A stretch of DNA of 64,000 nt from Streptomyces spiramyceticus (GTDB lineage: Bacteria; Actinomycetota; Actinomycetes; Streptomycetales; Streptomycetaceae), in assembly GCF_028807635.1 (NCBI RefSeq), contig NZ_JARBAX010000001.1, positions 1,067,001 to 1,131,000 on the forward strand, read 5' to 3'. The notes under the pieces were generated by a model. The model ran no database searches. It was given only the letters and a program-made list of their open reading frames with translations, and had not been told where the DNA came from. The position numbers were made by a program, and so were the translations under genes. Shown here piece after piece: positions 33,931 through 57,586 of this stretch (the stretch's first letter is position 1; every line of letters starts with the position of its first letter).

Positions 33931-35874
33931 GTGATACGCGCTATCCGGACCATGATCGCGAGCCGCGAGCCGCGAGCCGCGAGCCGCGAGCCGCGAGCCG
34001 CGAGCCGCGAGCCGCGAGCCGCGAGCCGCGAGCCGCGAGCCGCGAGCCGCGAGCCGCGAGCCGCGAGCCGCGAGCCGCGAGCCGCGAGCCGCGAGCCGCG
34101 AGCCGCGAGCCGCGAGCCGCGAGCCGCGAGCCGCGAGCCGCACGGGAGCCGCACGGGAGCCGCACGGGAGCCGAGCTCCCTTGCTTCCGTCCCGGTCACA
34201 GCCGCTGTCCCTGTCCCTGTCGGCCACGACGCCTACCGCTGGCAGACCTTCCGGGGTGAACGCCTCCTCGTCGCTGTAGTCCGCACCGTCACCTCCGCAG
34301 TGCGCGTGCTCGACGTCCTCTCCCCCGTCCTGCGCGACGACCAGCGCGTCAATCTGGTCTTCGCGTACGACCCTGGCTCGGCCTTCGGCGAAGGCGTACT
34401 GCCCCTGCTGCAGACCCACGGCGCGCTCGTCATGCCCTGGAAACAGTTCCGGGAGAGCGCCCCGCACCTGATCGTTACGGCCACCGAGAACGCGGTCCTC
34501 ACCGACGCCGGCCATGACGCACCCGTGCTGGTCCTCCCGCACGGCGTCGGCTTTCACAAGCACGTACCGGACGCACGCGGCCCCGGCGACCGGCTGGCCG
34601 GTCTGGTCCCGGCCGAACTGCTGGCCAGCGGCCGCGCCCGTACAGCCATCTCGCACCCGGACCAGGCTGCCCAACTCCCCGCCTCCGCCAACCCCTTCTT
34701 CGTCGGCGACCCCTGTTACGACTCGCTGCTCGCCGGCCAGGACGTGCGCGACAGGTACCGCCGAGCCCTCGGCATACCCGCCAACCATCGCCTGGTGCTG
34801 ATCAGTTCGACCTGGCGGGACGAGTCCGCCGTGGGCCAGGACTCCACACTCCCCGCCCGGCTGCTGGCCCAGCTCCCCACGGACGCGTACGCCGTCGCAC
34901 TCGTCACCCACCCCAATGTGACTGCCGCACACGGCTCGCTTCACCTCGAACACATCCTGGGCTCCGCCCGCGCCTCCGGCCTGATCCGTATCCCGCCCGA
35001 ATCCGGCTGGCAGGCTGCCCTCCTCGCCGCCGATCTGCTCATCGGAGACCACGGTTCGGTGACCTTCTACGGTGCGGCGATCGGCATCCCCGTCCTGCTG
35101 GGCGCCTTCAGCGAGCAGGAGGCCGTCGCAGGGACGCCCATGGCGGAGCTGGGACGGCTCGCGCCGCACCTCGATCCGTACGCGCCACTGCTCGCCCAGG
35201 TCGAGCGCACCATCGAGTCGCACGACGCCGACCGGATGTGCAAACTCGGAGCGACGGCACTGGCCGAGCCGGGCTCGGCACTCGCCCGTCTGCGTACGGC
35301 GGTGTACGAGCTCCTGGACCTGCCGGAGCCGGCCACCGGTCCACCCACCCCGCTGGCACCCGAGGACCCGTGCCCGGTCCCGCCGAGGGACGTGAGCACC
35401 GCTCTGTCGGTCACGACCCGCGTTGATGCCGACCTCGAAGCCGGACCGCGAGTCCGGATCCACCGCGTACCGGCAGCCGCCGTCGCCCCCACCACAGCAT
35501 CCGAGGAACAGCACCTGAGCTGTACGGACGACGACCGCGAACTGTCCGCGAGGGAGAGCGCCTCTGTCCTCCTACGCCATTCCCCATGTTCCGCCACCGC
35601 CGCGACGGCATGGGCCCGCGACATCCTCGCCCGTTACCCCGGAGCCCTGCTCGCCGCGACCGCCGTGACGGCCGCGGGAACGTACCGGATCGCTCTGAGA
35701 GACGGCCGTACGGTCGAGGCCACCGTCACCGGCCCGCCGCCCGATCCTGGCCTACCCGCGGCGGTCGTCCACGCCTGCCTGATGAGCGGCCTCCCGCTGG
35801 ACGGCTTCGTCACCGCCGCCGTCGCCGACCGCTCCGACGAGGACGTATCCCTACGCGTCCTCCCCCAGCACTGA
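33931..35874 (+). CDS. GT-B-fold (CDP-glycerol glycerophosphotransferase-like) protein with heptamer array, copy 1
   Basis: About 647 aa. The N-terminus is the repeat-encoded (SREPRAA)n segment. After it, residues about 95-480 have two Rossmann-like halves: ERLLVAVVRTVTSAVRVLDVL, LVLPHGVGFHKH, a THPNV motif and LLIGDHGSVTFYGAAIGIPVLL. The last parallels the TagF/TagB donor-site region. A small C-terminal alpha/beta domain ends it. It is a paralogue of 49573-51438 and 53616-55423. The array lies between the start and the body, so unit number sets the frame; as sequenced it is open. The start is uncertain: GTG 33931, ATG 33952 and GTG 33868 are in frame, and none has an ideal ribosome-binding site. 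It converges on the STAND gene with a 24-base overlap. No donor or acceptor is known. Confidence 0.8.
   Translation: MIRAIRTMIASREPRAASREPRAASREPRAASREPRAASREPRAASREPRAASREPRAASREPRAASREPHGSRTGAAREPSSLASVPVTAAVPVPVGHDAYRWQTFRGERLLVAVVRTVTSAVRVLDVLSPVLRDDQRVNLVFAYDPGSAFGEGVLPLLQTHGALVMPWKQFRESAPHLIVTATENAVLTDAGHDAPVLVLPHGVGFHKHVPDARGPGDRLAGLVPAELLASGRARTAISHPDQAAQLPASANPFFVGDPCYDSLLAGQDVRDRYRRALGIPANHRLVLISSTWRDESAVGQDSTLPARLLAQLPTDAYAVALVTHPNVTAAHGSLHLEHILGSARASGLIRIPPESGWQAALLAADLLIGDHGSVTFYGAAIGIPVLLGAFSEQEAVAGTPMAELGRLAPHLDPYAPLLAQVERTIESHDADRMCKLGATALAEPGSALARLRTAVYELLDLPEPATGPPTPLAPEDPCPVPPRDVSTALSVTTRVDADLEAGPRVRIHRVPAAAVAPTTASEEQHLSCTDDDRELSARESASVLLRHSPCSATAATAWARDILARYPGALLAATAVTAAGTYRIALRDGRTVEATVTGPPPDPGLPAAVVHACLMSGLPLDGFVTAAVADRSDEDVSLRVLPQH
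33961..34141 (+). repeat. heptanucleotide tandem array agccgcg, 25 full units
   Basis: 25 perfect copies of agccgcg plus 6 further bases. Three units (21 bp) encode the heptapeptide SREPRAA, and every reading frame gives the same peptide in a shifted phase; no frame contains a stop. A single-unit change shifts the downstream frame by +1 or −1. Confidence 0.97.
34136..34168 (+). repeat. 11-bp repeat agccgcacggg x3 fused to the heptamer array
   Basis: Three perfect copies of agccgcacggg directly follow the heptamer array and share its agccgc core. It looks like a heptamer with a 4-base insertion that was itself duplicated. Eleven is also not a multiple of three. Confidence 0.9.
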
Positions 35875-37899
35875 CCGCACGACCGCGGCGCGCGGGCTGC
35901 CCCCGGCCTCGTAAATCTCCAGGGCGCGGCTCAAGTGATCGCGCACACCGGTGAGTTCGTACAACGTCTCGCGATGCCCAGCTTCATAGTGCACAGCACC
36001 CACCTCCTGCAACGCCGCCACCGCGTCCTCCAGCGCCACAGCAGCCTCCTCCGTACGCCCTAGGTGAATCAGCACGTTGCCCTCGGCGGCACGCGCGCGT
36101 GCACCCATGCGCCGGTCCTCGACCCCCGGCGCCGCGAAGCGCGCGCAGGCATCGCGCAGAGTCACCAGCGCCTGCTCACCCTCCCCCGCAGCATCCTGCG
36201 CGCACCCGAGGAAAAGGAGCCCGATCGCGGTCCCGCGCGGGTCTCCGGCCTGCTCGTACAGGGCGAGCGCCTCGCGATACACGCCCACGGCCCGCGCCGG
36301 CGCATACCTGTCGCACCACCGCCCGTAGAACTCCCGGACCGAAGCGCGCAGCAGCGTGTGATCGGTCCGGTCGGCGCAGACGATCGCGGCGTCGAGCTCC
36401 TCGCGGGCACGCTCACGCTCGCCGAGGTCCATGAGAGGACGCGAAAGAAGCGTACGCAACCGGGCCTCGGCGGCCGGATTACCGTCCGCCGCAGCGGCAA
36501 CCACACCAAGTTCACCGGACGCCAGCCAGTCCCCCACGTACCGGTGATTGAGATAGAGGGCAGTCAGTGCCTCGGCCAGCTCCCAGGTGACGCGGTGCAT
36601 CTCATGGGCGGCAGCCGCACGCAGTACGGCGAGGAGCTCGCCACGCTCGGCATCCAGCCACGCAAGCGCCGCCGCCTTGTCGGCGAACGGACCGGGCACA
36701 CCTCCAAGCCGCTCAAGCCGCTCGACGGCTCGCCCGATGCGCATCCGACCGCCCATCACGGCCAGGTCTGCATGCGCGGCCAGCCGCAGCACATGCACGG
36801 CCGCCCGCGCCACAATTCCCGCCGCGTCCTCACGCCCCGCCATCCGCAGCGCGTGGAGCCGCACCAGATCGTGGAAGGCGTAACGCTCGTCTTCCCCGTA
36901 CTCGACGAGACTCGCCTCATCGAGTACGTCGAGCAGCTCCTGCGCCCGTACGACATCGACTTCCGCGAGCGCGGCGGCGAGTTCGACATCCCATCGCCTC
37001 CCCGGGTACAGCCCCAGCAGCCGGTAGAGCCGCCGGGCATCGTCCGGCAGCCCCTCGTACGCCACCCCGAAGACCACGGTCACCACACCCTCCCCGCGCA
37101 CGCTCAGCGCATCCAGCCGCCGCTTTTCGTCCGCCAGTTCACCTGCCAGCCCGCTCAGTGTCAGCCTCCGGTACGTCGCCAGCCGGCCCGCAGCCACATG
37201 CAGCGCGACGGGCAGCCCGGCGCACCATTCGACGATCCGCCGGGCGGCCTCCGGCTCGGCGGCGACACGGGCGGCTCCGCAGAGCTTTTCCAGCAGCTGC
37301 CGCCCGTGCTCGAACCCCAGCGGATCCAGGGGCATCAACTGCGCCCCGTCCTGTAAGAGCTCTGCGAGCAGCCTCTGGCTGGTCGCCACCACCACGCTCC
37401 CGGTGCCCGGGATCAGCGCCCTGACCTGCGCAGGATCGGTGACATCATCCAGCACCACCAGCACGGGTGCCTTGGCCGTGCGAGTCCGGAACATGGCACT
37501 CAACTCGCCAAGGCTGCCCGGCAGGTACTCGTCCTGCACCCCGAGGGCCCTCAGACAGCTGCTCACCCCGGCGGATACGTCCGCGCCCACCTGCCCGCGC
37601 AGGGCGGCAAAGTCGACATACACATCCCCACCGGGAAACCGCTCGCGCACCTCCTCGACCCAGTGCCGTACGGCTTCGCTCTTCCCAATCCCCGGCAGCC
37701 CACTGACCACCCCGATGCCACAGCCATCAAGCGCAGCCAGTACGTCCACACGATCGACGAACTGCGGAACCGAGCGTGGCACTTGCCTGGGCACCACCCA
37801 CTCCGGCCGCTCACCCCGAAAGATCACGTCCCCATGAATCACCCCGGCCTGCACAACGGGCCCGTACGCATCCCCACCGAATTCATTACGCACGCCCAT
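35851..37899 (-). CDS. STAND/NB-ARC NTPase with amyloid-type N-terminal motif and TPR-like C-terminus, copy 1
   Basis: 682-aa NLR-like ATPase. Residues 5-27 carry an RHIM/BASS-like motif (core YGPVVQAGVIHGDVIF). The NTPase follows with Walker A GLPGIGKSE (67-75), Walker B VLVVLDDV (about 146-153), sensor VVVATSQR and GLPVAL (about 235). A winged-helix/AMP-like region (YAFHDLVRLHALRM) leads into TPR-like helices to the end (DAAGEGEQALVTLRDA; LIHLGRTEEAAVALEDA). I chose ATG 37899, ten bases after ggagg, over ATG 37908. The gene converges on copy 1 of the repeat-bearing GT-B gene. Expected behaviour by family: ligand-triggered oligomerisation and signalling through the N-terminal motif. Confidence 0.88.
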   Translation of the reverse strand: MGVRNEFGGDAYGPVVQAGVIHGDVIFRGERPEWVVPRQVPRSVPQFVDRVDVLAALDGCGIGVVSGLPGIGKSEAVRHWVEEVRERFPGGDVYVDFAALRGQVGADVSAGVSSCLRALGVQDEYLPGSLGELSAMFRTRTAKAPVLVVLDDVTDPAQVRALIPGTGSVVVATSQRLLAELLQDGAQLMPLDPLGFEHGRQLLEKLCGAARVAAEPEAARRIVEWCAGLPVALHVAAGRLATYRRLTLSGLAGELADEKRRLDALSVRGEGVVTVVFGVAYEGLPDDARRLYRLLGLYPGRRWDVELAAALAEVDVVRAQELLDVLDEASLVEYGEDERYAFHDLVRLHALRMAGREDAAGIVARAAVHVLRLAAHADLAVMGGRMRIGRAVERLERLGGVPGPFADKAAALAWLDAERGELLAVLRAAAAHEMHRVTWELAEALTALYLNHRYVGDWLASGELGVVAAAADGNPAAEARLRTLLSRPLMDLGERERAREELDAAIVCADRTDHTLLRASVREFYGRWCDRYAPARAVGVYREALALYEQAGDPRGTAIGLLFLGCAQDAAGEGEQALVTLRDACARFAAPGVEDRRMGARARAAEGNVLIHLGRTEEAAVALEDAVAALQEVGAVHYEAGHRETLYELTGVRDHLSRALEIYEAGGSPRAAVVRSVLGEDA

Positions 37900-37991
37900 A
37901 CCCTGCATCCCTCCGAACGACCGTCACCACAAGCTACTTGACGAAAATGCGGGCATGCGGCGGCACGAAACCATCGAACCGGCAGTGGTGA

Positions 37992-38981
37992 TCACTTGGC
38001 GATCCGGGGACACTCCACGTCACCAGCTCGAGAAGGTGCGAGGCTGATGTCCTCGAGACGGACGCTCGTGGCCGCCCAGCGCCCTTTGCCGTGGGCTGTG
38101 TCCTGAAGGCCCCACAGCCAGATCCGCTCTCCAGTGCTCCCAAAAGTGAGAACGGCGCGGTCCGTTATCAACGGGCCGTTGTAAACGGCTATGTCCTTGC
38201 TGTGCGGCGTTACGCACATGAGCGTGCCGTGCAGTCCGTAGTACCCGGCGGGGTTACGGCCGGAGCGAACCGCCTCCGCAGCGTCGCCCCAAGCCGACCC
38301 GGCGGTGATCAGGCCCACGATCAGGGCGGTCAGGATGTACTGGACAGCGACCACTGGGAAAATGAAGGACGGTATGCCACCGCCCGGAACCCTTCCCCAG
38401 TGGGCGTGGCGCGCCCACCCGGCGGCAGCTACGAAGAGGAGCGCGAAGCCGGCGGCCAGTCCCACGGGCTTCAGCGCGGCGTACATCATCGAGTAGGTGG
38501 TAACTGGTACAGCCTCAACGGGGATGCCGAACCCAACCGTGAGATACAGGGTGTAGAGCAGGCGCCCGAACCACGGCAGGAGGAAGTACAACGGCGCGAT
38601 GACGGCGGGAACAAGCCAGTTCGCATTCCGGCTGAACCAGGACGAAGCCAGAGCCCACCGGAGGCCGAGAACGGTCCACGCGGCTAGCCCGACGCCGAGA
38701 ACGGTAAGCGGGATTCTCCACAACAGCTCGGCACCGCTCGCCGGCAGCGCCAGGAGTAGCTGATAGCCGAGGTACTGGAAAAACGCGGAGGCACCGACGC
38801 CCACAGCCAGGTACCGGTAACGAGACCAGGTTCGGAAGCCGATGAGCGAGGGAAACGAGACGCCCAGTGCCAGACCGGGCAGGACTGCGGCCCACCGCCA
38901 AGCCGAGTCCAGCGCCTGCAGAGCACCCCCGATAGCCAAGCACACGAGTGCGCAGGCGCGGCCCGATGGGTGCCGCCTCAT
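37992..38981 (-). CDS. multi-pass membrane protein
   Basis: 329-aa protein with about eight hydrophobic segments (for example WAAVLPGLALGVSFPSLIGF, IPLTVLGVGLAAWTVLGLRW, GLAAGFALLFVAAAGWA, YILTALIVGLITAG) and a soluble C-terminal domain of about 95 residues with beta-strand character (AVYNGPLITDRAVLTFGS, ERIWLWGLQD). I do not recognise a family. ATG 38981 was chosen because a TAA lies in frame just upstream. The 5' end overlaps a small ORF in another frame, so the true protein may once have had an extra N-terminal domain. It shares orientation with the helicase upstream. Confidence 0.72.
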   Translation of the reverse strand: MRRHPSGRACALVCLAIGGALQALDSAWRWAAVLPGLALGVSFPSLIGFRTWSRYRYLAVGVGASAFFQYLGYQLLLALPASGAELLWRIPLTVLGVGLAAWTVLGLRWALASSWFSRNANWLVPAVIAPLYFLLPWFGRLLYTLYLTVGFGIPVEAVPVTTYSMMYAALKPVGLAAGFALLFVAAAGWARHAHWGRVPGGGIPSFIFPVVAVQYILTALIVGLITAGSAWGDAAEAVRSGRNPAGYYGLHGTLMCVTPHSKDIAVYNGPLITDRAVLTFGSTGERIWLWGLQDTAHGKGRWAATSVRLEDISLAPSRAGDVECPRIAK

Positions 38982-39111
38982 CGGCTGTCGCAGTACGAAC
39001 GAGATAGCCCTCGGCCGTTAGCAATTGCTCGGCCAGAGCCGTCTCGTCGGGGTCGTCGGTCACTTCGACGAGAAGCCGCACACGGCGGTTGAAGACGACA
39101 TTGGCGCCCAT
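38515..39111 (-). CDS. small ORF overlapping the membrane-protein gene (start region credible)
   Basis: From ATG 39111 the frame reads MGANVVFNRRVRLLVEVTDD and then ETALAEQLLTAEGYLVRTAT, a natural-looking alpha/beta sequence with GC-rich third positions. After about residue 44 it runs out of frame over the membrane gene and becomes Arg/Ser-rich, which is unlikely to be real protein. Either a short domain gene lost its stop, or a fusion with the membrane protein was broken by a frameshift near 38981. Only 38981-39111 is well supported. Confidence 0.35.
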   Translation of the reverse strand: MGANVVFNRRVRLLVEVTDDPDETALAEQLLTAEGYLVRTATADEAAPIGPRLRTRVLGYRGCSAGAGLGLAVGRSPARSGTGRLVSLAHRLPNLVSLPVPGCGRRCLRVFPVPRLSATPGAAGERCRAVVENPAYRSRRRASRVDRSRPPVGSGFVLVQPECELACSRRHRAVVLPPAVVRAPALHPVSHGWVRHPR

Positions 39112-39207
39112 ACGATTTCTCCCCCAATGGTCGCGCTTGCGGCGACCTCTGGATGATCGCAGGAACCACTGACAATCGGGCACGGCCTGCGGGCCGCGAC
39201 GGCGCGG

Positions 39208-42200
39208 TCAGCGGGCGAAGCGCTCCAGATTGCGGCCAAGTACCGAGAAGTGGCGCTGCCCACGCCACGATTCATGATTGCCGATCACAATCAGGCGCCG
39301 CTTGGCCCTGCTGACCGCGACATTGAGAAGGTTTGGTTTGGCGGCGGCCCATCGCCTCGATCCCGCCGCGTCAGGGTGCGTCCCCAACACAAGGATCACC
39401 ACGTCTGCCTCTTTGCCCTGCGCCGTGTGGACCGTGCCGACACGGTCGTACGGAACCAGACCCCGGAGTGTTTCGGCGGCGCGCTCAGCCACCTCCCTGA
39501 AGGGACTGATGACGTACAGCTCGCTGGGCGACAGCCCTTCGCCGAAGAGCCGGTTCACTGCATCAACCAGCGCCCGCCCCTCCGCCGGCACCCACTTGCC
39601 GGTCGCCTCCTGGGAACGCACGTCCCACCAGAAACTACGTGGCAGGGGACCGAACCCACCCCTGTCGCCGACGCCGTGCACCATCAGCCCGTCGTACGCG
39701 ATCGTGTTGCTGACCGTGAACATCGGGTCGTCACAACGCCGGTGGACCCGCAGCGGCGAGCCGACCCATACCTCGGTCGAGCCGTCGGCAAGATCCGCGG
39801 GCAGCGTCGTGCCCCAGCGCCCCAGCCGGTCCGCGACCTGCTGCGCGGAGGTCCATGAGGGCACCCATTCCTGCGCCACCCGGTGGTGCTCGCGCAGCTT
39901 CTGCTGGGCGGTCCACGGCAGTACGATGACAGGTTCGAGTTGCAGCGGATCTCCGACCAGCACACCTCGGCGACTGCGCCACAGCGCTCCCACCGGCATT
40001 TGCGGAGCGGCCTGCCCCGCCTCGTCGACAAACAGCCAGCCGAGATCCTCCCGGCCGAGACCGGTGAACAGCCGGTCGTACGATGCGAAGGTGGTGGAGA
40101 CCACCGGTACGGTCAGAAACAGGTTCTGCCAGGCAGCTCGTACCGCTGCAGGCTTCAGGTCCTTCGGGGCGTCCCCCGCCACCACCTCCATAGCAGCCTG
40201 CAAATTCTTCAGCATCGTGCCCCCGGCCGCGCTCAGGAAAGCCCGGTGCAGGCGCAGCGCTTCAAGGAAGAGCCGGGTCCTCGCGGCGGCGAATTCTTCG
40301 TCGGCCCAGGGGGCGGACTTCTCTCGCCGCTCCACGGTCGCCCGGTCCGCCACCGCGGTGAAATCGGCCGCGTCAGGCACGTGATCGCCCCACTGTTCAC
40401 GGGCCTGCCGCACAGTCCGCTCCAGGTCGCCTGTCCGCTCCCGCAAGCCCCGTATCGAGTCCACCACGCTCCGGGCGGTCGCCTCCTCGGCCCGCAGGTC
40501 CGCGAGTCGCCCGCGTGCCGTAGCAGCCGCGGTGGCCGCACCTTCGACGAGGGCCGTGAGCCGCTCGTACTCCTCTTGCCACGTGCGGTTTGTACGGCCT
40601 CCCGTAAAAAGGCTCTGCAGCATGCCCGGTTGAGTGCTCTGGTGGTCGTACCGGACGGCCCGATGGCCGCTCTCGGCCTCCTCCAGCCGCTCAACCTCTT
40701 GCAGCGCGAGTGCAACGTCCCGTGCCAGCCCGGGCAGTGCCGCGACGACGTCCGCAGCGCGCCGCTGGACAACATCGAGCTCCCGGCGCGCCCATTTCAG
40801 GTCCCGCAACGCGTATGCCGCACGCTGCCGTTCGTCGCGCAGCTGCTCCACCGTGCGCCGGGCCGCCTTGAATCGGCGTACGGCCTGCGCCCAGTCGGCC
40901 GGCTCCGCGCTCTGCTCTCCCCTGCCGGAGAGCACATGCCACAGCCCTTGATCCGTACGGGTACGCCGGGTGCCACCCCGCGCTGTTGTCTCCCGCAGAT
41001 TTCCCCACCAGAAGCTGTCGGTGAAGTCGCTCCGGTTCTTGCGATTGCCGAGCCGGGCCGCGACGGCCCCCCAGGCATCAGCCCCTCCCAGCATCAATCG
41101 CGCCTGCTCGGGCAGGTACGCAGCCTCGTCCCGCCACTGTTCCGCGATGGCCCCGAGGGAAGGGATTTCATCGGTGAGGTTCTGAACGGCCCCATTGTTG
41201 GCGGAGGCCACCACCATTTCGTAACCGGCAAGGTGAGGCTTCAGTTCACGCACAGTCCGCGAGAACTGCTCACTGCGCCAGGAATGGGTCTCGCCGAACG
41301 CCTGCTGCGGAGTGCGCAGTTCGGACAGGGCGCAAGCCCGGTCGGTGACCAGGGCAGCGATGACATCACGCAGCATGGTCGTCTTGCCTGTACCGGGCGG
41401 TCCGTTTACTGAGAAGATCCCGTCTCCGCCTCGGAGTTCGGCCAGGAGGCTGTTTACCGCGAACTGCTGGCTGAGGACCAACGACCGATCGGTGGCGGAC
41501 GGCCACCGGCCCAGCGGTATGCGCTCCGGCGCAACGCCCGCCAGAACAGCCTGAGGCTGTTCTCGCACATCCTGGCGGCGCCCGGTGTCGATACGGCCGG
41601 TGCCCGTCAGGTACGACTCCAGCGCCGTCCCTGCCCGGCCTTCGGCCAGCTCCCCCGACACCTTCTCCAGATCGTCGGCGATGAAGCTGTTGAGGAAGTC
41701 CGACCGTACGGCTTCGTCGTCCCGGTCCTCCCGGACTTGGACGCTCTTGATCCGGGCCGCGTCTGGCACCAGGTCCAAGGTCACACCAAAGCGTTCGGCG
41801 AGCCAGGCGGCGTAGGCCGCGATGGAGTCGAAGGTCAATGGCCTGGTACCGACATTCTCCGGCAGTTGCGGCTCCAGCTCGACCTCGCCACGGGTGGCAC
41901 CGACCGATGCTGTCACCACCGACTGGGCGACCCGCCCCGCGGCCGCCTGCGCCGCGCCCCCGACACCCCCGACAACCGCTTCCCCTGCTGCGCCTTGCAC
42001 CACGGCACCCACTGCGCTGACGGCACCGCCAGTCACCGCGTCGGCCACCAGCGTCCCCGCCAGTGCCAACAGCCCTCCAGAGCGGCCCGACCGGCCTCCC
42101 CGCACAGTGAGCCTTCCGTCACCCAGGTCCTGCATCTTCTGCTCGCAGGCCGCGGCCTCAACAGCGAATCCGTCCAGCCATCGCGCGTCCGAAGGGCCGG

Positions 42201-42603: not shown

Positions 42604-42644
42604 CAGGCCCCCTCCATCCGTACCCGCCGGATTGATCAGCGTAG

Positions 42645-44344: not shown

Positions 44345-44476
44345 GCGCCCCCGCGCTCCGGTCCGCAGGTCCCCCGTCACGCACCTACGCCCGGAGTGAC
44401 ACCCCGATCACTGTTCGCGCAGGCTACCCAGGCAGTGATCTTCCGAGGAAGGCCGAGAACCGGCCAGATCCCGACC

Positions 44477-47059
44477 TCAGAACATCGCCGACTCCCCACC
44501 CACTGGGCGCCGAGCCACAGCGAGTGCGACCGCGTGGACGAACCACTCCAGTACCGCGCAGAGCCCTTCACTCTGCTTGGCGAAGACCTCAATGGGGAAG
44601 GACGGGCGCAGATCCAATTTCGCCTCGGCCAGGCGGATGCCTTCGATCTCGTTCATCCGGGACATCAACTCGCGCCGCAGCGGCTCGTCGTCGAACGGCG
44701 GCCGCCGCTTCAGATGCTGGAACACGACCTCGACGGTGCCGGTCTCCGGGTAGATCGCGATCGGCCAGAGGGTGCGCTCCTGAAGGGCGTCGCCGACGTC
44801 AAGCATCGGGAAGCAGCTCGTCTCGCTCGCCTTGCCGTACACGCAGTGGCCGCCCTGCTGCTCCCAGAAGCGAAGTGCGGACCGTACGCCCTGGGCTGTC
44901 TCGGGCGTCTGGTTCTCGCCCAGCTGCGCCTCGAAGCGGATGGCCGCGGCCTGTTGCTCGTCCGGGGACTCCGGGGCAGGCGCAGTCTCCTCGGGGGCCT
45001 CCTGCCCAAGGAGGGCCGCCAGGTCCGATCCGGTCAGCTGGTGGGAACGGCGGGCTCGGCCCGCCTCGTCGAAGGGGACGCCTTCCGTCTCCAGCAGTGC
45101 CTGCGGATCTCCGGAGTGCTGGTCGTCGGCCCAGCGGAAGCCCGCCGAGATACGGCCGTCGGCGGTCAGAACGCGGTACGCCCCGTGGACACCTGGCTTG
45201 GACGCCAGATGGTTGCCGACCGAGATCGCGTGGGTGCCTATGAGAGCGGCCACATCCCCGTACGTGGTCCAGGTTCCGGCCGGCATGGCAAGGAGCGCCG
45301 CGCGCATCTCCTTCCAGCCATGCCATTCCTCGTCGGCCTGCAGCGCCCCGTCGAGGGGGCCCGGCCACAACTGAACTGCGCGCTCGGCAAGTTCATCAGC
45401 ACGCTTCAGGATTTCCGCCTTGCCCCAGCGTTCCTGTACCGCTATGGCCTGGTTCATCCGCAGGGCACTGAAGTCGAGAATCTCCTGCTTACGTCGGAAG
45501 GGGTGGTTCGACAGTCGGGCATTGTCCGCCGAGAGCGTGAGGTTGCCCAGGGTGTGTACCAGCTCGGAGTGGAGGTCGTCCGGACTCTGGCCGTCCTCGG
45601 CCTCTTCGGCAAGGAGGTCGAACCACTGCTGGGCCGGCCGCTGGGGCAGGACGTGCTCCACCGAGAGATTGGCCTTGACGTAGTCGACCGGTTCACTCGC
45701 CCTGTAGCTCTCCTCCAGCCGCCGCAGCACCTGGAATCGCTGATTGCTGCGGCCGGTCTTGTAGAAGGGCCTGGTACGGACGGCCTCGCGGACGGCTTGA
45801 TCGCCCGGCCAGACACGCGCTCCCGTCTTGGGCCGCGACAGGTGGCGGCGTACAGCCTCCGCCGGGGAGCCGTCCTTCTCCAGTTCCTTGGGGAGTTCCA
45901 TGAAGACGCGGTTGCTGCCGGTCGTCGAGAGCCCGCAGAGCAACCGCCGCACCATGTAGCTTTCGGCGTACGCAAGGGCCTCCGCGGCCTCGTGCGGCGT
46001 GGCCTGTCCGCCGTGAACCAGGTCGAGCAGATGAAGGGCGAGGGGGTAGTGGGTCTGGCCTCCCCAGCGGGAGAGCCGTACGAGCACTTCGCGCAGTTCG
46101 GCATCGGGCTCCCGCTCGGGCTCCAGGATCCGCATCAGCCGCTCGGCGCGCTCAGTGAGCGCTGAGATCTCCGATTCGAGCGCCGCTTCGTCATCGGTCA
46201 GCGGGTCCAGGCGCTTCTTCTGGTCGCGGTAGATCTCGCTCTGCTTGGCCCGGCTGTTGCCACCGACCACCAGGTCGAGCCAGACGAGAAGTTCGAGGTT
46301 CTCCGGGCCGAGGAGATCCTGCATGGGCAGCCAGAGATTGCGGTAGACCGACTCACCACGAGTCGGCAGATACATGAAGAGGTAGTTGCGCAGCAGGTCG
46401 CTCTGGCTGAGGCCGACACCGGTGTTGTTGATCGATTCGAAGATGCGGTAGACGTTGTCACCCTCCGCCGCGGTGATCTCGACGATCGACAGCAGACCGC
46501 TCAGTACGGCTTCCACCGCGTCGGCCCACTGGTCGCCGCCGCTCTCCTCGCCCTCGGCCAGCGCGCCCAGGAAGAACCGATAGGCGGCTCCGATGTTGCC
46601 GGGACCGCTCGCGCGTGGCGAGGACTCGACGCAGGCGGCGTACGCGTCACGGTCCGCCTGGGTCGGCAGCAGCCGGTAATGGTCCGCGCCGTCCCGGTAG
46701 TTGTTGACCAGCAGGAGGTCATGGATGCGGTCGGCCTTCTTCGTCTCCCCGCGCCCCCGGTGGCGGTCGCGTAGCGCGATGAAGGCGAGCATCAGCGTGG
46801 TGAGCCGTTGCTGTCCGTCGACCACGAGCCAGCGCTGCATGCCTCCCGCGGTGATCTTGCCGGGGGCCAGTACCACGGACCCGAGAAAGTGTGAGGCCGG
46901 ATCGGCGCCTTCCACTCGCTGATCGACCAGTTCCTGTACGTCGTCCCACAGCTGTTGCAACTCGTCCCGCTGCCAGCTGTAAGTGCGCTGGTAGAGCGGA
47001 ACCTGGAACTGCTTCTCGCCCTGGACGAGCTTGCTGAACGTGGTCTCCTGAGCGTGCAC
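44477..47059 (-). CDS. GmrSD-type DUF262/DUF1524 nuclease with alkyltransferase-like domain
   Basis: 860-aa protein related to type IV restriction GmrSD and SspE. The DUF262 NTPase/nuclease half has QVPLYQRTYSW (about 19-29) and the signature DGQQR at 81-85. The DUF1524 half has the HNH-like LSVEHVLPQ (465-473) with GNLTLSADNARLSN (about 505-518). Residues about 585-650 look like an alkyltransferase-like DNA-binding domain (PAGTWTTYGDVAALIG; GAYRVLTADGRISAGF) without the PCHR cysteine. A ~180-residue C-terminal domain of DUF5655-like appearance follows. Expected role: cleavage of modified (phage) DNA. It is divergent from the RelE-UvrD gene with a 101-bp gap. ATG 47059 is the start. Confidence 0.88.
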   Translation of the reverse strand: MHAQETTFSKLVQGEKQFQVPLYQRTYSWQRDELQQLWDDVQELVDQRVEGADPASHFLGSVVLAPGKITAGGMQRWLVVDGQQRLTTLMLAFIALRDRHRGRGETKKADRIHDLLLVNNYRDGADHYRLLPTQADRDAYAACVESSPRASGPGNIGAAYRFFLGALAEGEESGGDQWADAVEAVLSGLLSIVEITAAEGDNVYRIFESINNTGVGLSQSDLLRNYLFMYLPTRGESVYRNLWLPMQDLLGPENLELLVWLDLVVGGNSRAKQSEIYRDQKKRLDPLTDDEAALESEISALTERAERLMRILEPEREPDAELREVLVRLSRWGGQTHYPLALHLLDLVHGGQATPHEAAEALAYAESYMVRRLLCGLSTTGSNRVFMELPKELEKDGSPAEAVRRHLSRPKTGARVWPGDQAVREAVRTRPFYKTGRSNQRFQVLRRLEESYRASEPVDYVKANLSVEHVLPQRPAQQWFDLLAEEAEDGQSPDDLHSELVHTLGNLTLSADNARLSNHPFRRKQEILDFSALRMNQAIAVQERWGKAEILKRADELAERAVQLWPGPLDGALQADEEWHGWKEMRAALLAMPAGTWTTYGDVAALIGTHAISVGNHLASKPGVHGAYRVLTADGRISAGFRWADDQHSGDPQALLETEGVPFDEAGRARRSHQLTGSDLAALLGQEAPEETAPAPESPDEQQAAAIRFEAQLGENQTPETAQGVRSALRFWEQQGGHCVYGKASETSCFPMLDVGDALQERTLWPIAIYPETGTVEVVFQHLKRRPPFDDEPLRRELMSRMNEIEGIRLAEAKLDLRPSFPIEVFAKQSEGLCAVLEWFVHAVALAVARRPVGGESAMF

Positions 47060-49344: not shown

Positions 49345-49346
49345 CC

Positions 49347-49574
49347 CACGGATTCGTGTTCGCGTTGGCCGCGGATGGGGGTGCCTGCGGCGCGTGGGTA
49401 CTCGTAGGACGCGAACGTGCGGATCACGCGGCCAGGGGTGGGGCGGCGGCCTGTGCGGTGGGCCTTGGACAGTTCCGCGTATGAGTAGCGGAGGTCCGTG
49501 AGGGCGTGGGCCGTCCACGGGCCGCCGGAGCCGGTGGAATTGTTGTCGAGCGCTTTATGTAGTGTCTCGGCCAT
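49347..49574 (-). pseudogene. possible gene fragment on the minus strand
   Basis: From ATG 49574 the minus frame has strong GC-rich third positions (ALTDLRYSYAELSKAHRTG; RVIRTFASYEYPRAAG) down to the end of the helicase gene. Beyond that point it would be antisense to the helicase, so the 3' part is lost or spurious. No family recognised. This coding signal weakens the case that the GT-B copy 2 starts at ATG 49573. Confidence 0.3.
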
Positions 49575-51438
49575 GCCGCCACCCAGCCCTGCCGAGAAAG
49601 GCCCGCTGATCTGCGGAAACGGCATACCTCAAGACCTGGGGCGAAGTAGGATTAACGATCCCATAGCGGGCAGCGGGCAGCGGGCAGCGGGCAGCGGGCA
49701 GCGGGCAGCGGGCAGCGGGCAGCGGGCAGCGGGCAGCGGGCAGCGGGCAGCGGGCAGCGGGCAGCGGGCAGCGGGCAGCGGGCAGCGGGCAGCCGAAGGG
49801 CGTGAGGGTGAGGCGTCCGTGCTCTTCGCCGTGCGGTCGGCCACCGCGCTGCATCGGTTGCTCGATGTCCTGCCCGTCTTTGCCGGGGACCCCCGCGTGG
49901 TACGCCGATTCACGCTCGTGCCCGGGTCTGATTTCGGGGTTGACGCACTCGCCGCCATTGAGCGTTACGGCGCTCGTACCATCCCCTGGACCGAGGCCGT
50001 CGCCCGTACGCACCAACTGATCCTCGCCTCCAGCCCCAAAGGCGACCTCGACCGGTTGCGCGGCGGGCCCCTCGTGCTTCTGCCCCACGGGGCCGGGTTC
50101 AACAAGGTGCTTGCCGGCGACGGCTCGGACGATTCGGCTTCCGGGCTCGACCGGGCGTACCTGGAGCGGGACGGGCGGCTGCTCGCAGGGCTTCATGCGC
50201 TCGCTCACCCAAGTCAGGTCTCCCGGCTCCGCGCCGAGTGCCCCGAAGCCGCCCGTCGTGCGGCTGTCGTCGGTGATCCCACCCTCGACCGGATGCTGGC
50301 CTCTCTCCCCCACCGCGACCGCTACCGTTCCGCGCTCGGCACAGGCGGGCGGAAACTGGTGGTGTTCACGTCCACCTGGGGGCCGGAGTCGCTGCTCGTG
50401 CGGCGCCCCGGGCTCATTGCCGATGTAGTGGGCGAATTGACTTATGACGGGTACCAGTTGGCGCTTGTCGCGCATCCCAACGTTCACAGCAAGCGTGGTC
50501 TTCTCGATCTGCAGGAGCGGCTCGCACCCGCCGTCCGTGCCGGGCTTGTTCTGGCGCGGCCTTACGAGGAGTGGGCAGCGCTGCTCGTAGCCGCGGATGC
50601 CGTGGTGACTGATCACGGGTCTACCGCTCTGTACGCCGCCGCCCTCGACCTCCCTATCCTCGCCGCCTGCGACGGGGGCGACGAGCTCATTGCCGGAAGT
50701 CCAATGGCCGAGCTGCTCGCGCATGTGCCGTGGCTGGAGTCGCCCGGAGACGTCGAGCGTGCCATCAGCGCTCACCGGGCCGGCTCGGGGCGCGCTCTTG
50801 CGTCCGCCGCCTTTGCCGCCGGCGAGCAGGGGCGGGCGGTGGAGCGCCTCAGGGGTGAGCTGTATGCGTTGCTGGGGATGGAGCCTCTTAGTGGCCCGCC
50901 CGACGAGCGGGCGTTGCCCGCCCCTATCGCGCGAGCTACGAAGCCTGCTGCCTTCGCCGTACGAGTCCGTCTCAGCGGCGGCGACGTACACGTGGAGCGG
51001 CGGCCGCCGTACGGTGCAAGCAGCTCTCACCACCTCGCCGCCGAGCACGGCCGTGCCACCGCCCAGCAGTCGCAGAGCGCCGCTGTCCTCTTCCACTCTC
51101 AGCAAGCTGGACGGCGTATCGGGTGGACCGTTAGCGGGTGGATTTCCGCGACGCTCGCCCAGTGCGGAGGGCGACGAACCGCCGGTGTCGTGCTCAGCGA
51201 GGACCGGTGTGTGGTCCGGAGGGGCGACGGGCCCCTCCTGTCGGTACACATCGCAGACTTCCGCGAGCGCGGGCGCGTATTCCGTGCCGATCCCGCCGCT
51301 GTCCTCTCCGCCGTTCATGCGTGGATGGGCGAGCACTCCGGCGCCGTAGGAGCTGGATTTCGTTGTCTCGTCGCCGGTCGCGCTTACACCGTACGGATCG
51401 CCACGGCGAGCCCCGCCGATGCCGAACGCGAGATCTAG
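49573..51438 (+). CDS. GT-B-fold (CDP-glycerol glycerophosphotransferase-like) protein with heptamer array, copy 2
   Basis: Up to 621 aa. A repeat-encoded (SGQRAAG)n stretch leads into the same fold as the other copies: VLFAVRSATALHRLLDVLPV, LLPHGAGFNKVL, VVGDPTLDRML, FTSTWGPESLL, AHPNVHSKRGLL and VTDHGSTALYAAALDLPIL. The small C-terminal domain follows (DPAAVLSAVHAWMGEH). Start uncertain: ATG 49573 is in frame but lacks a good ribosome-binding site and overlaps minus-strand coding. A −10-like TAGGAT lies at 49647-49652, just before the array. GTG 49819, after the array, has gagggtgagg upstream. If the last is right, the array is leader rather than coding. The stop overlaps the convergent STAND gene's stop by 4 bases. 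Confidence 0.75.
   Translation: MPPPSPAEKGPLICGNGIPQDLGRSRINDPIAGSGQRAAGSGQRAAGSGQRAAGSGQRAAGSGQRAAGSGQRAAEGREGEASVLFAVRSATALHRLLDVLPVFAGDPRVVRRFTLVPGSDFGVDALAAIERYGARTIPWTEAVARTHQLILASSPKGDLDRLRGGPLVLLPHGAGFNKVLAGDGSDDSASGLDRAYLERDGRLLAGLHALAHPSQVSRLRAECPEAARRAAVVGDPTLDRMLASLPHRDRYRSALGTGGRKLVVFTSTWGPESLLVRRPGLIADVVGELTYDGYQLALVAHPNVHSKRGLLDLQERLAPAVRAGLVLARPYEEWAALLVAADAVVTDHGSTALYAAALDLPILAACDGGDELIAGSPMAELLAHVPWLESPGDVERAISAHRAGSGRALASAAFAAGEQGRAVERLRGELYALLGMEPLSGPPDERALPAPIARATKPAAFAVRVRLSGGDVHVERRPPYGASSSHHLAAEHGRATAQQSQSAAVLFHSQQAGRRIGWTVSGWISATLAQCGGRRTAGVVLSEDRCVVRRGDGPLLSVHIADFRERGRVFRADPAAVLSAVHAWMGEHSGAVGAGFRCLVAGRAYTVRIATASPADAEREI
49647..49652 (+). promoter_or_regulatory. TAGGAT, −10-like hexamer before array 2
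   Basis: TAGGAT matches the Streptomyces −10 consensus and ends 12 bases before the heptamer array. No matching −35 (TTGACN) lies 17-19 bases upstream, so this is only a candidate. Confidence 0.3.
49665..49790 (+). repeat. heptanucleotide tandem array agcgggc, exactly 18 units
   Basis: 18 perfect copies of agcgggc (126 bp) followed by a partial agc. Three units encode SGQRAAG; all frames are open and give the same heptapeptide in a shifted phase. The unit differs from arrays 1 and 3. Confidence 0.97.
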
Positions 51439-53542
51439 GAAGAGCGCTCCCGGATCGCCCGGGCCGCCCCTCGGTGACTCTCGGCCCTTCCCTCGTCCCC
51501 CGTCTCCTCCGCCAGCGCTCCCAACGCGTCATGGATGCGCGCCTCGTCGAAGGTCGCTCCGCGACGCCGGGCGCTGGTCAGCGCAGCCTCGTACAGCTCC
51601 CTTGCCTCGCCCGTACGCCCGAGTCCCACGTGCAGCACCCGGCCCAGTTCGAAGCCGGAGCGCGCCGTCATTCGCTCGCGCCCCTGCTCGCGCGCCGTCG
51701 CATGGGCAGTCTCCAGCAGGGCTGCCGCACGCTCCGGCTGCCCCATACCGGCCGCCGACAGGCCCAGCAGGTACGTCTGGAGGAGTACGCCGTAGTCGTT
51801 GCCGATCTCGATGTGGATGCGCCTCGACCGCTCGAAGTACGGTTCCGCCGCTGCCCAGTCCCCCTGTACGGAGAGGAGCTTGCCGCGGAACTCGATGGCC
51901 GACGCCTGGAGTTTGCGTTCCTGGGGTGTCGTGCCGAGCGTCTGCGCGCCGTGCAGCGCGTGCTTCAGTTCCCGTTCCGCCTCGTCGTAACGCCCCTCTT
52001 CCCACAACGGGCGGGCCAGCTGGCAGCGCATCCGTACCAACGCCGGGATGTTTCCCGCCCGCGCCGCCGAGGCCACGCCCGCACCGAAGGATTCGATCGC
52101 GTCGGTGGGATGCGGGTGGTCCAGGAAATGTGTCCACAGTGGCTCGCACAGCGCCCACACCTCGGCATCGAGGCCGTGCGCATGAGCAGTTCGTACGCAG
52201 CCGTGGAGCGCGAGGCGCTCCGCCTCCAGCCAGTGCAACGCCTCCGGTTTTCCGGCGAAGGGTACGTCGGGGGCGTACGGCGGTAACTCCACCGTCTCCC
52301 CGAACGTCATCCGCTTCCCAGCCGCCAGTACGTCGGCGCGCTGTGCCTGTCGCAGATACCAACGGACGATACGCCGCCGCGCCTCGGCGGACTCCGCACC
52401 AGCCGCGTCGTCGCGGTCGGCGCAGCGGCGGGCGTGGGCGCGGACCAGATCATGCATGCGCAGCCGGGCTGCGGTGTCCGGCAGGAGCAGGCTCGCCGTT
52501 TCCAGCTCTTCCAGGGCGTCGTCGGCGGCCTCCGCGCCTGCACCGAGCAGGGCCGCTGCCGCTTCGGGGGCTATGAACGGGCCCGGGTGCACGGCGAGCA
52601 GCCGATAGAGGCGGGCGGCTTCGTCGGTCAAGTCCCGGTACGCGGCGTCCCAAACGCCTTCCACCATGGAGACACCCTTTCCCTGCAGTTCGGCGGCGAG
52701 TTCGTCGATCAGGCGGCGCAGCGGGCGGCGGCGGTGCTTGCGCACCCACTTGGCGGCGACATGGAGGGCGGCGGGCAGACCGCCGCACAGATCGGCGAGC
52801 CGGGCTGCCGCCTCGGGCTCTGCTGCCAGCCTCGGGTCGCTGACGATGCGGTGCAGCAGGCGTACGGCGTACTGCTCGTCCAGCGGCGCGAGGGGAGTTC
52901 GAGGAGGGCGTCGCCCTCGATGTCGTACAGGCGGCTGTGACTGATGACGACGGCTACGCTGCCGGCGGAGGACGGCAGCAGGGCTTCGGCCTCTGTCCCG
53001 TATCGCACGTTGTCGAGGATGACGACGAGTCGCTTGTGCTGCGTACGCTCCCAGAATTGCTTGCGGCGGCCGGGGAGAGAGGGGGCCAGCCAAGGCGTGC
53101 GGACGCCGAGGGGTCGGAGCAACTCCTCCAGGCAGTCGGTCAGTTCCGTGCCACCCTCACGCCGGTGGTCGTCCAGGTCGACGTAGAGGATGCCGTCCGG
53201 GCAGCGCTCACGCAGTCCGCGGGCCAGTTGGTGGGCGAGTGCGGTCTTGCCCACTCCGCCGATGCCACTGAGGGCGACGAGGAGCGGGCCTTCGCGGCCG
53301 GCCCCCGCTCCCTCGCAGGCTCCGTCACCGGCTCCGGGCGATGCTCCGGCCGACTGGAATACGGTCGCCTGCTCGGTCTCGCGGTCCTCGAAGTGGTGAG
53401 TTTGGGGTGGGAGTTGGCAGGGCGCGTGCTCGGCCTCCGGTGGGGGTGCCTCGTGCACGTGGAGTTCGCCGACACTCCCCGCCTGTACGAGAGTTCCGAC
53501 TCTGGCCTGCCCGCTCACCGTGTTCCGCGTCTCGTCGACCAC
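51435..53542 (-). pseudogene. STAND/NB-ARC NTPase with amyloid-type N-terminal motif, copy 2, frameshifted
   Basis: Read in two frames this is a ~700-aa NLR-like ATPase. The first frame (from 53542) has the RHIM-like motif at residues 7-29 (core VGTLVQAGSVGELHVH), Walker A LSGIGGVGKT (91-100), Walker B LVVILDNV and VAVVISHSRL. After GDALLELP, similarity continues in the second frame (LAPLDEQYAVRLL; CGGLPAALHVAA; HDLVRAHARRCADRD) through the TPR-like half to 51435. The frames join if one C is added to the CCCC run (GGGG at 52892-52895 on the plus strand). This may be a real knock-out, reversible homopolymer variation or a sequencing error. ATG 53542 starts it. Confidence 0.82.
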
Positions 53543-53615
53543 GGGACCACTCTAGGGGCGGGCACCGGCTATCGTGGCGCGGCCGAGCGCGAGAGGGAAG
53601 GGGGTGGGGTGGCCT

Positions 53616-55423
<1,808 letters not shown>

Positions 55424-55447
55424 CGTCAGCTGCCGGCCCGTGAGCCG

Positions 55448-57586
55448 TCAACCATCAGCGTCCAGAGCCTCCAACCGCGCCCGCACCTCTGCCGCGCCGG
55501 GCGCCCCCGTCCGCTCATGGAAGGCGAGCGCCTCGCGCAAGAAGCGACGGACGTCCGCCGGATCCGCCGCGGCGCGCGCCCGGAGCTCCGCGATGTCGGC
55601 CTGCTGGACCACCGCCTCCTCCGCCGCCATCTGCGCCGCCGCGAGGGCCAGCCACTCCTCCGCCTGCTCGGGCCGCCCGGCCGCCAGGGCGGTCTCGCCG
55701 AGGCTGGTCAGGACCCTCGCCTCGTTGTACGGATCGGGCAGCGCCCGCATCAGGCCCTGGGCCTGCGTCAGTTGCGCTGTCGCCTCCGCATGGCGGCCCT
55801 GACCGGTCAGGGCACGGCCAAGATGGTGTTCCAGCAGGGCGAGGGCCCGGGGGTCGGTGGACAAGCTCTTGGCACGTCGGAAGCAGTCGGCCGCCTCCTC
55901 GTACCGCTGCTGCTTCAGCCTCAGCAGGCCGAGGGACTCAACGGCCGTCGCCTCGCCTCGCGCATGTCCTGCACGGCCGTCCGCCTCAGCCGCTGCCGTG
56001 AATTCACGTTCTGCGTCCGCAAATTGGCCTATACCCAGGTACGCGAAACCGAGCTGAGTGTGCATGCGCCCCTCGGCCTCCGGCATGTCCGGGCAACGGG
56101 ATGCCGCCTCCACGCCCAGCCGGTGGGTGGCGATCCACTCCTGGTGGAAGCCCTGCTTCAGGTACAGACTCCACAGCGTCTCGCACAGCTGCCAGGTCAG
56201 CTCGTCGTGACCGTACTCCGCCGCCGTACGCACCGCTTCCTCCAGGTTCTCGCGTTCCGCAGCCAGCCAGGTCAGCGCCTGCGCGGGCGACGGGAACGCG
56301 GGCGACGGGGCGAGGCGCGCGTAAGCAGGACCCAGATGCCAACGCCCCGGAATCACACAGGCGTCGGCGGCCGCTCCGGCATCGACGTAATGGAGCAGCA
56401 GGCGTCGTACGGCCGCCGCCGACCGCGCCGGGCCCTCCTCGCGCAGGGCACGCTGCTCGGCGTGGGACCGGATCAGGTCGTGGAAGCGGTAGCGGCCGGA
56501 GGCGGTTTCGCCGATGAGGTGGATCTCCGCAAGCTCCTCAAGCAGCAGGGCTGCCTTCTGCTGCGATACGCCGACGAGCGCGGCGGCGGCCTGGGCAGTG
56601 AGCGTTGACCATGGGCGCAGGCCCGCGAGGCGGTAGAGGCGGGCCGCGTCCGGTGACAGGTCCGCGTACGAGGCGTCCGCAATGCCAGTCAGGGGCTCTT
56701 GATCATCCGTGTCCCGCCCGGCGTGGTCTGCCATGCCTCTCTCCATGTCCTGCCCCATGTCCCCCTCCATGTCCTGCCGCTGCTTCTCCCAGGTCAGGTG
56801 GGTCCGTACGGCCATGCGCTCGGCTGCGACGCACAGCGCGAGCGGCAGTCCGCCGCAGTGTCTCGCCACCGAATCCGCTCCCGTCATGTCGCGGCCGGGC
56901 ACGACACGGGCGAGGAGCTGCTCGGCGTCATCGGCCGTGAACGGGCCCAGTTCGATGTGGTGCGCTCCGCGTTCCCGTATCAGCCTGGAGAGCCGGTGGC
57001 GGCTGGTCACCACGGTGAGCGAGCCGGGTGCGGTGGTGAGCAGGGGCAGCACCTGGGCGACGGAATGCGCATTGTCGAGGATGGTCAGGATGCGCTGGCC
57101 GGCGGTCAGGCTGCGGAACAGGTCCGCCCTGTCCTCCTCGTCGGCCGGGATCCAACGTCCGTCGATGCCCAGTCTGCGGAGAAAACGGTTCAGGACCGCA
57201 GATGGGGCAAGGGCGGTGGCGGTGTTGTCGCCGCGCAGGTCGATGTGGAGCCGGGGGCCTTCGTAACGCCCGCTCAGCGACGCCGCCCAGTGCAGGGCGG
57301 TGGCCGACTTGCCGATACCACCCGGGCCGGAAAGTACGACGAGGTCCGGGACGTCGGCCCTCTCCTCCAGCAGGGCTGCGAGACGGGCGAGTTCGCGGCG
57401 CCGGTTGGTGAAGTACCGGGTGGGGGCGGGTAACTCGCGCGGCACGGGCCAGCCCGGGATGCGGACAGGCGCCGGGGCCTCGTGAAAGGAGACGCTGCCG
57501 ATGTGCTGGGCCTGCACACTGTGGCCGTACACGGTCCCGCCGAGCTCATTGCGTACGCTCGCCTCTGCCGCCAACTCGCTGTCCAT
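55448..57586 (-). CDS. STAND/NB-ARC NTPase with amyloid-type N-terminal motif and TPR-like C-terminus, copy 3
   Basis: 712-aa NLR-like ATPase, the only second fully open copy. The RHIM-like motif spans about residues 13-35 (core YGHSVQAQHIGSVSFH). Walker A GPGGIGKS is at 87-94, Walker B LTILDNA and sensor VVTSRHRL follow, then CGGLPLAL. An insert rich in Met/Asp (MEGDMGQDMERGMADHAGRD), encoded by imperfect short repeats near 56740-56775, is peculiar to this copy. The C-terminal half is TPR-like (LGFAYLGIGQFADAEREF; LRLKQQRYEEAADCFRRAK; ALTGQGRHAEATAQL). ATG 57586 has gaaggggg upstream. It converges on the phase-OFF GT-B copy 3. Confidence 0.88.
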   Translation of the reverse strand: MDSELAAEASVRNELGGTVYGHSVQAQHIGSVSFHEAPAPVRIPGWPVPRELPAPTRYFTNRRRELARLAALLEERADVPDLVVLSGPGGIGKSATALHWAASLSGRYEGPRLHIDLRGDNTATALAPSAVLNRFLRRLGIDGRWIPADEEDRADLFRSLTAGQRILTILDNAHSVAQVLPLLTTAPGSLTVVTSRHRLSRLIRERGAHHIELGPFTADDAEQLLARVVPGRDMTGADSVARHCGGLPLALCVAAERMAVRTHLTWEKQRQDMEGDMGQDMERGMADHAGRDTDDQEPLTGIADASYADLSPDAARLYRLAGLRPWSTLTAQAAAALVGVSQQKAALLLEELAEIHLIGETASGRYRFHDLIRSHAEQRALREEGPARSAAAVRRLLLHYVDAGAAADACVIPGRWHLGPAYARLAPSPAFPSPAQALTWLAAERENLEEAVRTAAEYGHDELTWQLCETLWSLYLKQGFHQEWIATHRLGVEAASRCPDMPEAEGRMHTQLGFAYLGIGQFADAEREFTAAAEADGRAGHARGEATAVESLGLLRLKQQRYEEAADCFRRAKSLSTDPRALALLEHHLGRALTGQGRHAEATAQLTQAQGLMRALPDPYNEARVLTSLGETALAAGRPEQAEEWLALAAAQMAAEEAVVQQADIAELRARAAADPADVRRFLREALAFHERTGAPGAAEVRARLEALDADG

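Follow-up and report, generated by a model that had tools for sequence, protein, structure and literature searches.

Once triggered, NLR-type receptors are believed to kill the cell that carries them or to arrest it, so the matter of which cells hold an armed NLR copy is central to multicellular bacteria. In filamentous actinobacteria, amyloid NLR signalosomes have been described in which BELL effectors bear C-terminal BASS motifs and the NLR bears an N-terminal motif (PMC7889193). A heptamer array associated with a promoter is documented for hmw1A of Haemophilus influenzae, where the repeats overlap the -10 box of P2, are transcribed within the 5' untranslated region, and lower expression as copy number rises (PMC8262952). 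Two further known or predicted systems are Pgl (phage growth limitation) of Streptomyces coelicolor, which is phase variable via a repeat tract in pglX (PMC4365076), and GT4-STAND fusions, which are predicted counter-invader systems (PMC8195603). Signalosomes of the amyloid NLR kind, phase variation driven by repeats, its use in Streptomyces phage defence (Pgl), and the GT4-STAND predictions are thus known separately; in the literature searched, which subscription papers mostly lay outside, no description of a GT-B protein, a repeat array, and an NLR in combination was found.

Here we describe three pairs of convergent genes, each comprising a GT-B gene and an NB-ARC ATPase (NLR) gene and each carrying a perfect heptamer array, in a 64,000-nucleotide stretch of Streptomyces spiramyceticus DNA (contig NZ_JARBAX010000001.1, positions 1,067,001 to 1,131,000; hereafter the window). 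As in amyloid NLR signalosomes, the NLRs bear an N-terminal motif and a small protein, predicted to be helical, has a motif of this kind near its C-terminus; the names BASS and BELL apply by architecture rather than by model. Unlike those systems, a third gene is present, an often phase-variable GT-B gene paired with the NLR; moreover, NLRs often carry the effector-like domain as a fusion, and in this genome three NLRs share one candidate effector. The likeness to hmw1A is a 7-bp array at a promoter -10 box, but hmw1A encodes an adhesin and its array is untranslated, whereas the genes described here form an immune-type pair in which one class of array (type c) lies within the gene and shifts its frame. 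Pgl involves a mononucleotide G tract and different proteins, and the likeness is that of phase-variable defence in Streptomyces. GT4-STAND systems also join a glycosyltransferase with a STAND NTPase; the protein described here, however, is TagF-like by Pfam, is encoded by a separate convergent gene rather than a fusion, and is accompanied by a repeat array. At E values up to 0.01, PADLOC assigned none of the three GT-B proteins and neither of the first two ATPases to a family; the third ATPase had weak partial matches only.

The features of the window, with positions counted from its first letter, are as follows.

33919..33947, plus strand: module 1 promoter-like element (TTGTGG at 33919, 17-nt spacer, TATCCG at 33942), ending 9 nt 5' of the array
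33952..35874, plus strand: module 1 GT-B gene; ATG at 33952 immediately 5' of the array, frame open across the array, folded domain from 34231
33957..34141, plus strand: module 1 heptamer array, type a, CGCGAGC x26.4
35851..37908, minus strand: module 1 NB-ARC ATPase with N-terminal amyloid-like motif
49498..51438, plus strand: module 2 GT-B open frame (outer limit of the frame, start codon not fixed), domain from about 49819
49647..49652, plus strand: module 2 -10-like hexamer TAGGAT, beginning 18 nt 5' of the array
49665..49793, plus strand: module 2 heptamer array, type b, AGCGGGC x18.4
51435..53542, minus strand: module 2 NB-ARC/TPR ATPase, now in two frames (52709-53542 and 51435-53093)
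53574..53983, plus strand: module 3 GT-B N-terminal half
53967..53972, plus strand: module 3 -10-like hexamer TACAAT, within the HGVGYNK codons and beginning 17 nt 5' of the array
53984..54026, plus strand: module 3 heptamer array, type c, GATACCG x6.1, within the coding region
54029..55423, plus strand: module 3 GT-B C-terminal half, in a frame that differs from that of the N-terminal half
55448..57607, minus strand: module 3 NB-ARC/TPR ATPase with N-terminal amyloid-like motif
62238..62696, minus strand: candidate effector, 152 aa, predicted helical bundle with a matching motif near its C-terminus (62262-62342)

A preliminary description of this DNA had reported the same convergent two-gene unit three times, with a perfect 7-bp array at every GT-B gene. 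The coordinates agree with it: stop codons overlap by 24 bp in module 1 (35851-35874) and by 4 bp in module 2 (51435-51438), those of module 3 are separated by 24 bp (55423/55448), and all three arrays are present. While its arrays and gene order stand, its picture of the units needs amending in two places. In module 3 the array interrupts the GT-B coding region, and the parts of the gene 5' and 3' of it are read in different frames, which identifies this copy as being in an OFF phase, and the module 2 ATPase is split near 52885, away from any array, by an apparent frameshift that is either real or a sequencing error. No further relatives of the GT-B gene were found in the 7.08 Mb genome. GmrSD and GajB-like genes sit between modules 1 and 2, a defence-island context; the GmrSD-type restriction enzyme (44480-47059, minus strand) carries an extra alkyltransferase-like DNA-binding domain (PF01035).

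The GT-B proteins were assigned by a combination of profile and fold comparison. PF04464 matched module 1 with a score of 31.1 (cut-off 22.1) and module 2 with 10.6, and gave no match to the C-terminal half of module 3. Fold comparison, whose coverage leaves out residues 371-547, places the protein in the GT-B fold, close to TagF and UDP-GlcNAc 2-epimerase, and invariant H, K, HPN, and GDHGS columns are found in 63 aligned relatives. A PDB sequence search with the GT-B profile returned no match up to E 1, and none of the three GT-B proteins had a GT4 model among its listed matches up to E 1, bearing in mind that HMMER filters can miss weak matches. Among the 120 listed of 320 relatives, database names include hypothetical protein, CDP-glycerol glycerophosphotransferase, and Translation initiation factor 2, the last of which, applied to several GT-B relatives, is likely a misannotation.

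The partner genes are innate-immunity-type ATPases, as had been proposed: NB-ARC scores above cut-off in modules 1 and 3 and below it in the C-terminal fragment of module 2, and TPR scores above cut-off in modules 2 and 3 and below it in module 1 (22.8 vs 30.1). The N-terminal motif that the preliminary description assigned to every ATPase is present in all three window ATPases (in module 2, within the upstream fragment), and a model built partly from them also recovers it, but it is not universal, since many type-c NLRs start with other domains. This model combines 15 N-terminal motifs of NLRs, including the three of the window, and 150 of 233 candidates were scored. Searched against the genome, it gave four strong matches. 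Three are the window NLRs themselves, which match by construction; the fourth, at 62262-62342 of the minus strand (E 1.8e-7), is not part of the model, and the next match had an E value of 1.1. The corresponding gene (62238-62696) lies 4.6 kb from an NLR in the window, is single copy in the genome, and belongs to a set of 436 database proteins, itself included, at E 1e-5 or better. Its predicted structure comprises five helices (residues 2-110) followed by an unstructured tail that holds the motif (mean pLDDT 76.1). We regard the protein, whose modelled architecture resembles that of BELL effectors, as a likely effector, one that is new here.

Effector-like domains recur in relatives of these loci and fall into two families that are mutually unrelated by profile (0.4%). 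Stand-alone effectors of family 2 gave a profile match of 97.9% to the N-terminal regions of seven NLRs of the type-c clade, with no column-shuffled control above 1%; for family 1, the match to two other type-c NLR N-termini was 98.1%, a figure obtained without a shuffle control. The domain is fused or adjacent to the NLR at 15/19 type-a loci, 30/50 type-c loci, 7/10 array-less loci of the type-c clade, 1/16 type-b loci, and 0/32 loci of an array-less clade (type d), and lies elsewhere in the locus in 5 type-c, 4 type-b, and 6 type-d cases; types b and d thus rarely have an effector in the locus (5/16 and 6/32). Some of these matches arise by construction because the sequences seeded the models (L119, L135, L153, L155, and L187, and the N-termini of L039, L059, L062, L107, L111, L123, and L133; L numbers denote loci), and L043, which has one type-a and one type-c gene, was scored as type a in both the effector-domain and the NLR-position counts. 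Including fused copies, family 1 occurs in 84/150 genomes vs 70/150 for the GT-B protein, which suggests that it also works with other NLRs or occurs on its own.

The GT-B/NLR pair is widespread in the genus and scattered beyond it. A GT-B relative was present in 70 of 150 Streptomyces genomes (an even sample) and, class-wide, in 27 of 296 genomes and 10 of 114 genera. Named relatives include Streptacidiphilus, Lentzea, Kribbella, Kineosporia, and Amycolatopsis. Together, the genus search (110 loci) and the class-wide search (38) yielded 148 loci with 150 GT-B places. Using the window NLRs as tblastn queries, a convergent NLR was found no more than 3 kb downstream of the GT-B gene at 129 of the 150 places; of the remainder, two have a same-strand downstream NLR, five an upstream NLR only, five reach a contig end, and at nine none was found. 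Where the contig was sufficient, an NLR lies directly downstream of 83/84 array-bearing GT-B genes and is convergent in 30/30 type-d loci. The proposal that the two genes form one functional unit is supported by these counts. Phase variation, on the other hand, is not essential to the pair, given how common array-less type-d pairs are. Homologues generally devoid of a STAND neighbour and of arrays, or arrays missing from close relatives, which the preliminary description had named as evidence against a single system, were not what we found, although an array-less clade with NLR partners does exist. The interpretation in the preliminary description is as a whole partly supported, its putative parts being a surface polymer made by the GT-B protein, the monitoring of that protein by the ATPase, and a role against phages or in kin discrimination. 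No third neighbour family recurred in more than 7 of the 148 loci (in a stricter set of 601 ORFs that left out NLR-overlapping ORFs and missed the effector). Three of ten array-less genes of the type-c clade (L072, L137, and L156) have no detectable NLR, vs 1 of 48 array-bearing genes with sufficient contig, as if array, promoter, and NLR had been lost together.

Arrays in the GT-B regions differ in kind from those in their surroundings. Unfiltered counts of perfect arrays of at least 28 bp in the GT-B regions of the 148 loci gave 74 of period 7, 7 of period 8, 3 of period 9, and 1 of period 10 (the unit tables cover periods 7, 8, and 10 only, and it is the unfiltered counts on which the statement of periods rests), so that 82/85 have non-triplet units. 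The flanks, totalling 1.25 Mb, held 22 perfect arrays of this length, of which 16 have triplet units and one has period 7. Array enrichment in GT-B regions exceeds chance. Three placements can be distinguished: type a (module 1), upstream of the domain and with a leader; type b (module 2), immediately upstream of the domain; and type c (module 3), inside the gene and 3' of the HGxGYNK motif. Units vary between clades, even at 85-87% identity (L046/L049, L160/L164), and are nearly T-free on the coding strand (A exceeds T in 81/90 arrays, T exceeds A in 6). Avoidance of stop codons within units was considered and dropped, as 0 units with a forward stop compare with about 1 expected. At 12/18 type-a loci, the GT-B frame contains a stop codon after the array and before the domain; frame switching cannot work there, and the array belongs to a leader. 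At L135, a second heptamer array (TGCCCAT x9.9; oriented positions 4073-4141) lies about 0.9 kb upstream of the GT-B gene. In two genomes (L217, L218), GCCGGGA arrays with an identical 45-nt stretch just upstream have no GT-B or NLR match within 7 kb; these represent a second, unrelated heptamer-array locus.

A promoter-like element ends where the array begins, and this element is new here. Judged from sequence, the case for it is strong for types b and c and weaker for type a. In type c, the Y-N/T codons of HGxGYNK spell the -10 hexamer TANNNT in 52/53 internal-array genes (the motif having been located by its amino acids), compared with 0/38 upstream-array genes (motif found in 36) and 1/62 array-less genes (motif found in 50). 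The array starts 9-21 nt past the first T of the hexamer in 50/53 type-c loci; exceptions include L131, in which no motif was found and which was left out of later counts, and L068, in which an imperfect array starts right at the motif end. Codon usage does not explain the hexamer, because AAT accounts for only 22/199 Asn codons and ACT for 40/1296 Thr codons elsewhere in the same genes. At L107, an insertion of about 0.9 kb separates the -10 hexamer from the array of a type-c GT-B gene.

Hexamer and array also disappear together. Ten array-less genes are nested in the type-c clade of the GT-B tree (clade support only 0.68), and nine of these lack the final T of the hexamer (Fisher p=4e-9, a statistic that ignores phylogeny); in seven of the nine the loss is synonymous, since N or T is still encoded there. 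The tenth, L081, keeps the hexamer together with a 2.3-copy remnant, and some others keep remnants of 2-2.6 copies; all ten continue in frame over the 50 residues inspected. In type b, TANNNT lies 13-19 nt 5' of the array in 13/14 evaluable loci. In type a, TTG precedes TA by 16-18 nt in 13/19 evaluable loci (a count without a chance estimate), position 6 of the hexamer is mostly not T, and most loci have no TANNNT; L043 went unscored in this spacing scan as its hexamer falls just outside the scanned distance. Among 21 control arrays of the same two units at 20 other loci of the genus, TANNNT, the only pattern sought, occurred in 0/21 within 50 nt upstream on the unit strand, and a general link between heptamer arrays and promoters is therefore unsupported. 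A short product of the type-c promoter was also considered and rejected: no conserved start codon was found downstream of the array, 10/40 loci have no in-frame start after it, and only 7/40 have a Shine-Dalgarno-like match.

Natural variation in copy number and frame between strains agrees with the earlier characterization of the GT-B gene as hypermutable. After removal of two arrays at L164 and one at L179 from the 53 type-c arrays, 29 of 50 are in frame and 21 are out of frame (12 and 9 in the other two frames); nine of these calls (L146, L153, L154, L155, L159, L163, L170, L173, and L188) rest on weak anchors (score of 5 or less), the L133 array contains an N gap, and draft assemblies may mis-size arrays. 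The in-frame share exceeds one third (p=4e-4), and the intact protein is therefore probably selected at least part-time. Arrays with fewer than 6 copies are in frame in 13/17 cases, and those with at least 6 copies in 16/33. Two S. anthocyanicus plasmids provide ready-made ON and OFF alleles: that of NBC_01372 (L201) has 9.6 copies, in frame, and that of NBC 01668 (L202) has 17.6 copies, out of frame; their array flanks share 99.3% identity over 4.9 kb and 99.6% over 5.8 kb. The NLR has decayed to fragments in both plasmids although the GT-B array still differs, which speaks against the pair being strictly required in these plasmids. Out-of-frame arrays are also seen in S. coelicoflavus NBC_00357 and NBC_00099 and an in-frame one in Streptomyces sp. 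SYP-A7193, and copy number differs in species pairs at about 90% DNA identity (e.g. 13.3 vs 6.4). Among loci fetched from genomes, the NLR match region occupies one open frame at 20/20 OFF loci and at 26/29 ON loci (interrupted in 1, not found in 2). As NLR genes stay open beside out-of-frame GT-B genes, the GT-B protein is unlikely to be an antidote.

Given these patterns, the reading that we favour, at somewhat better than even confidence, is that the GT-B/NB-ARC pair is an NLR-based immune module subject to phase variation: the GT-B protein would license the receptor, and array length can shift the GT-B gene out of frame. Transcription would start at the array; in type c, and probably in type b, copy number would set whether full-length GT-B protein is made, whereas in type a the array may mostly serve as a leader that tunes expression, by analogy with Haemophilus hmw1. 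A trigger sensed by the NLR in a GT-B-positive cell would cause the NLR to oligomerise and to engage a small helical effector, either in cis at its own N-terminus (many type-a and type-c loci) or in trans through the shared amyloid-like motif (as in the window), and the effector would then kill or arrest the cell or compartment. The GT-B protein would be needed for arming or sensing, and the array would make arming heterogeneous among cells. Licensing of the receptor is suggested by a single line of sequence evidence, namely the tolerated OFF states.

The same near-constant NLR adjacency, fold similarity to TagF and UDP-GlcNAc 2-epimerase, and invariant columns in the 63 relatives would also suit a GT-B protein that is guarded or acts as a sensor, either acting on or mimicking the target of an invader or competitor molecule, with the NLR reporting its state and phase variation evading attackers of the GT-B protein. 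We regard this as unlikely, but the data do not separate a guardee from a licensing factor. That the GT-B protein acts as the toxic effector, activated by the NLR and phase variable because it is costly, seems more improbable. Such a role has been proposed for GT4 domains, which are predicted effectors and in several cases are fused to STAND NTPases (PMC8195603); many NLRs described here, however, have a separate effector-like helical domain fused or adjacent to them, and no GT-B place is among the seven matches of the genome motif search. The database names of the 120 listed relatives might suggest a conventional pair of cell-envelope or regulatory genes whose repeats are incidental; the specificity of array and promoter, the NLR adjacency, and the effector link speak against this, and we consider it highly improbable.

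The promoter-like element admits a further explanation, in which the embedded promoter is mainly a mutator, transcription start at the array raising slippage and the ON/OFF frame being the sole functional output. The joint absence of hexamer and array fits this explanation, as do the greater length of these arrays (median 15.7 copies, n=24) than of promoter-less arrays of the same units (5.9 copies, n=21; p=5e-5) and a weak trend between copy number and -10 match (rho 0.28, p=0.053). It is important to note, however, that heptamer arrays also arise without such a promoter and that both the length and the trend statistics ignore phylogeny; we hold this explanation to be possible but doubtful.

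Returning to the phase-variable immune module, its wider meaning lies in an NLR whose partner gene, in several actinomycete families, is flipped by repeat slippage; heterogeneity would then be designed into bacterial NLR immunity. The -10 box embedded in coding codons, and gone where the array is gone, offers a clean, testable case of DNA-level selection within a gene. More speculatively, and with only tentative confidence, the promoter-array cassette may be a selected device in which RNA polymerase starts at the heptamer array, in one lineage from a promoter within enzyme-motif codons, and which runs a cell-to-cell lottery deciding which cells of the mycelium arm an amyloid/NLR death pathway. 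If true, the cassette would build into innate immunity a randomiser that is coupled to transcription.
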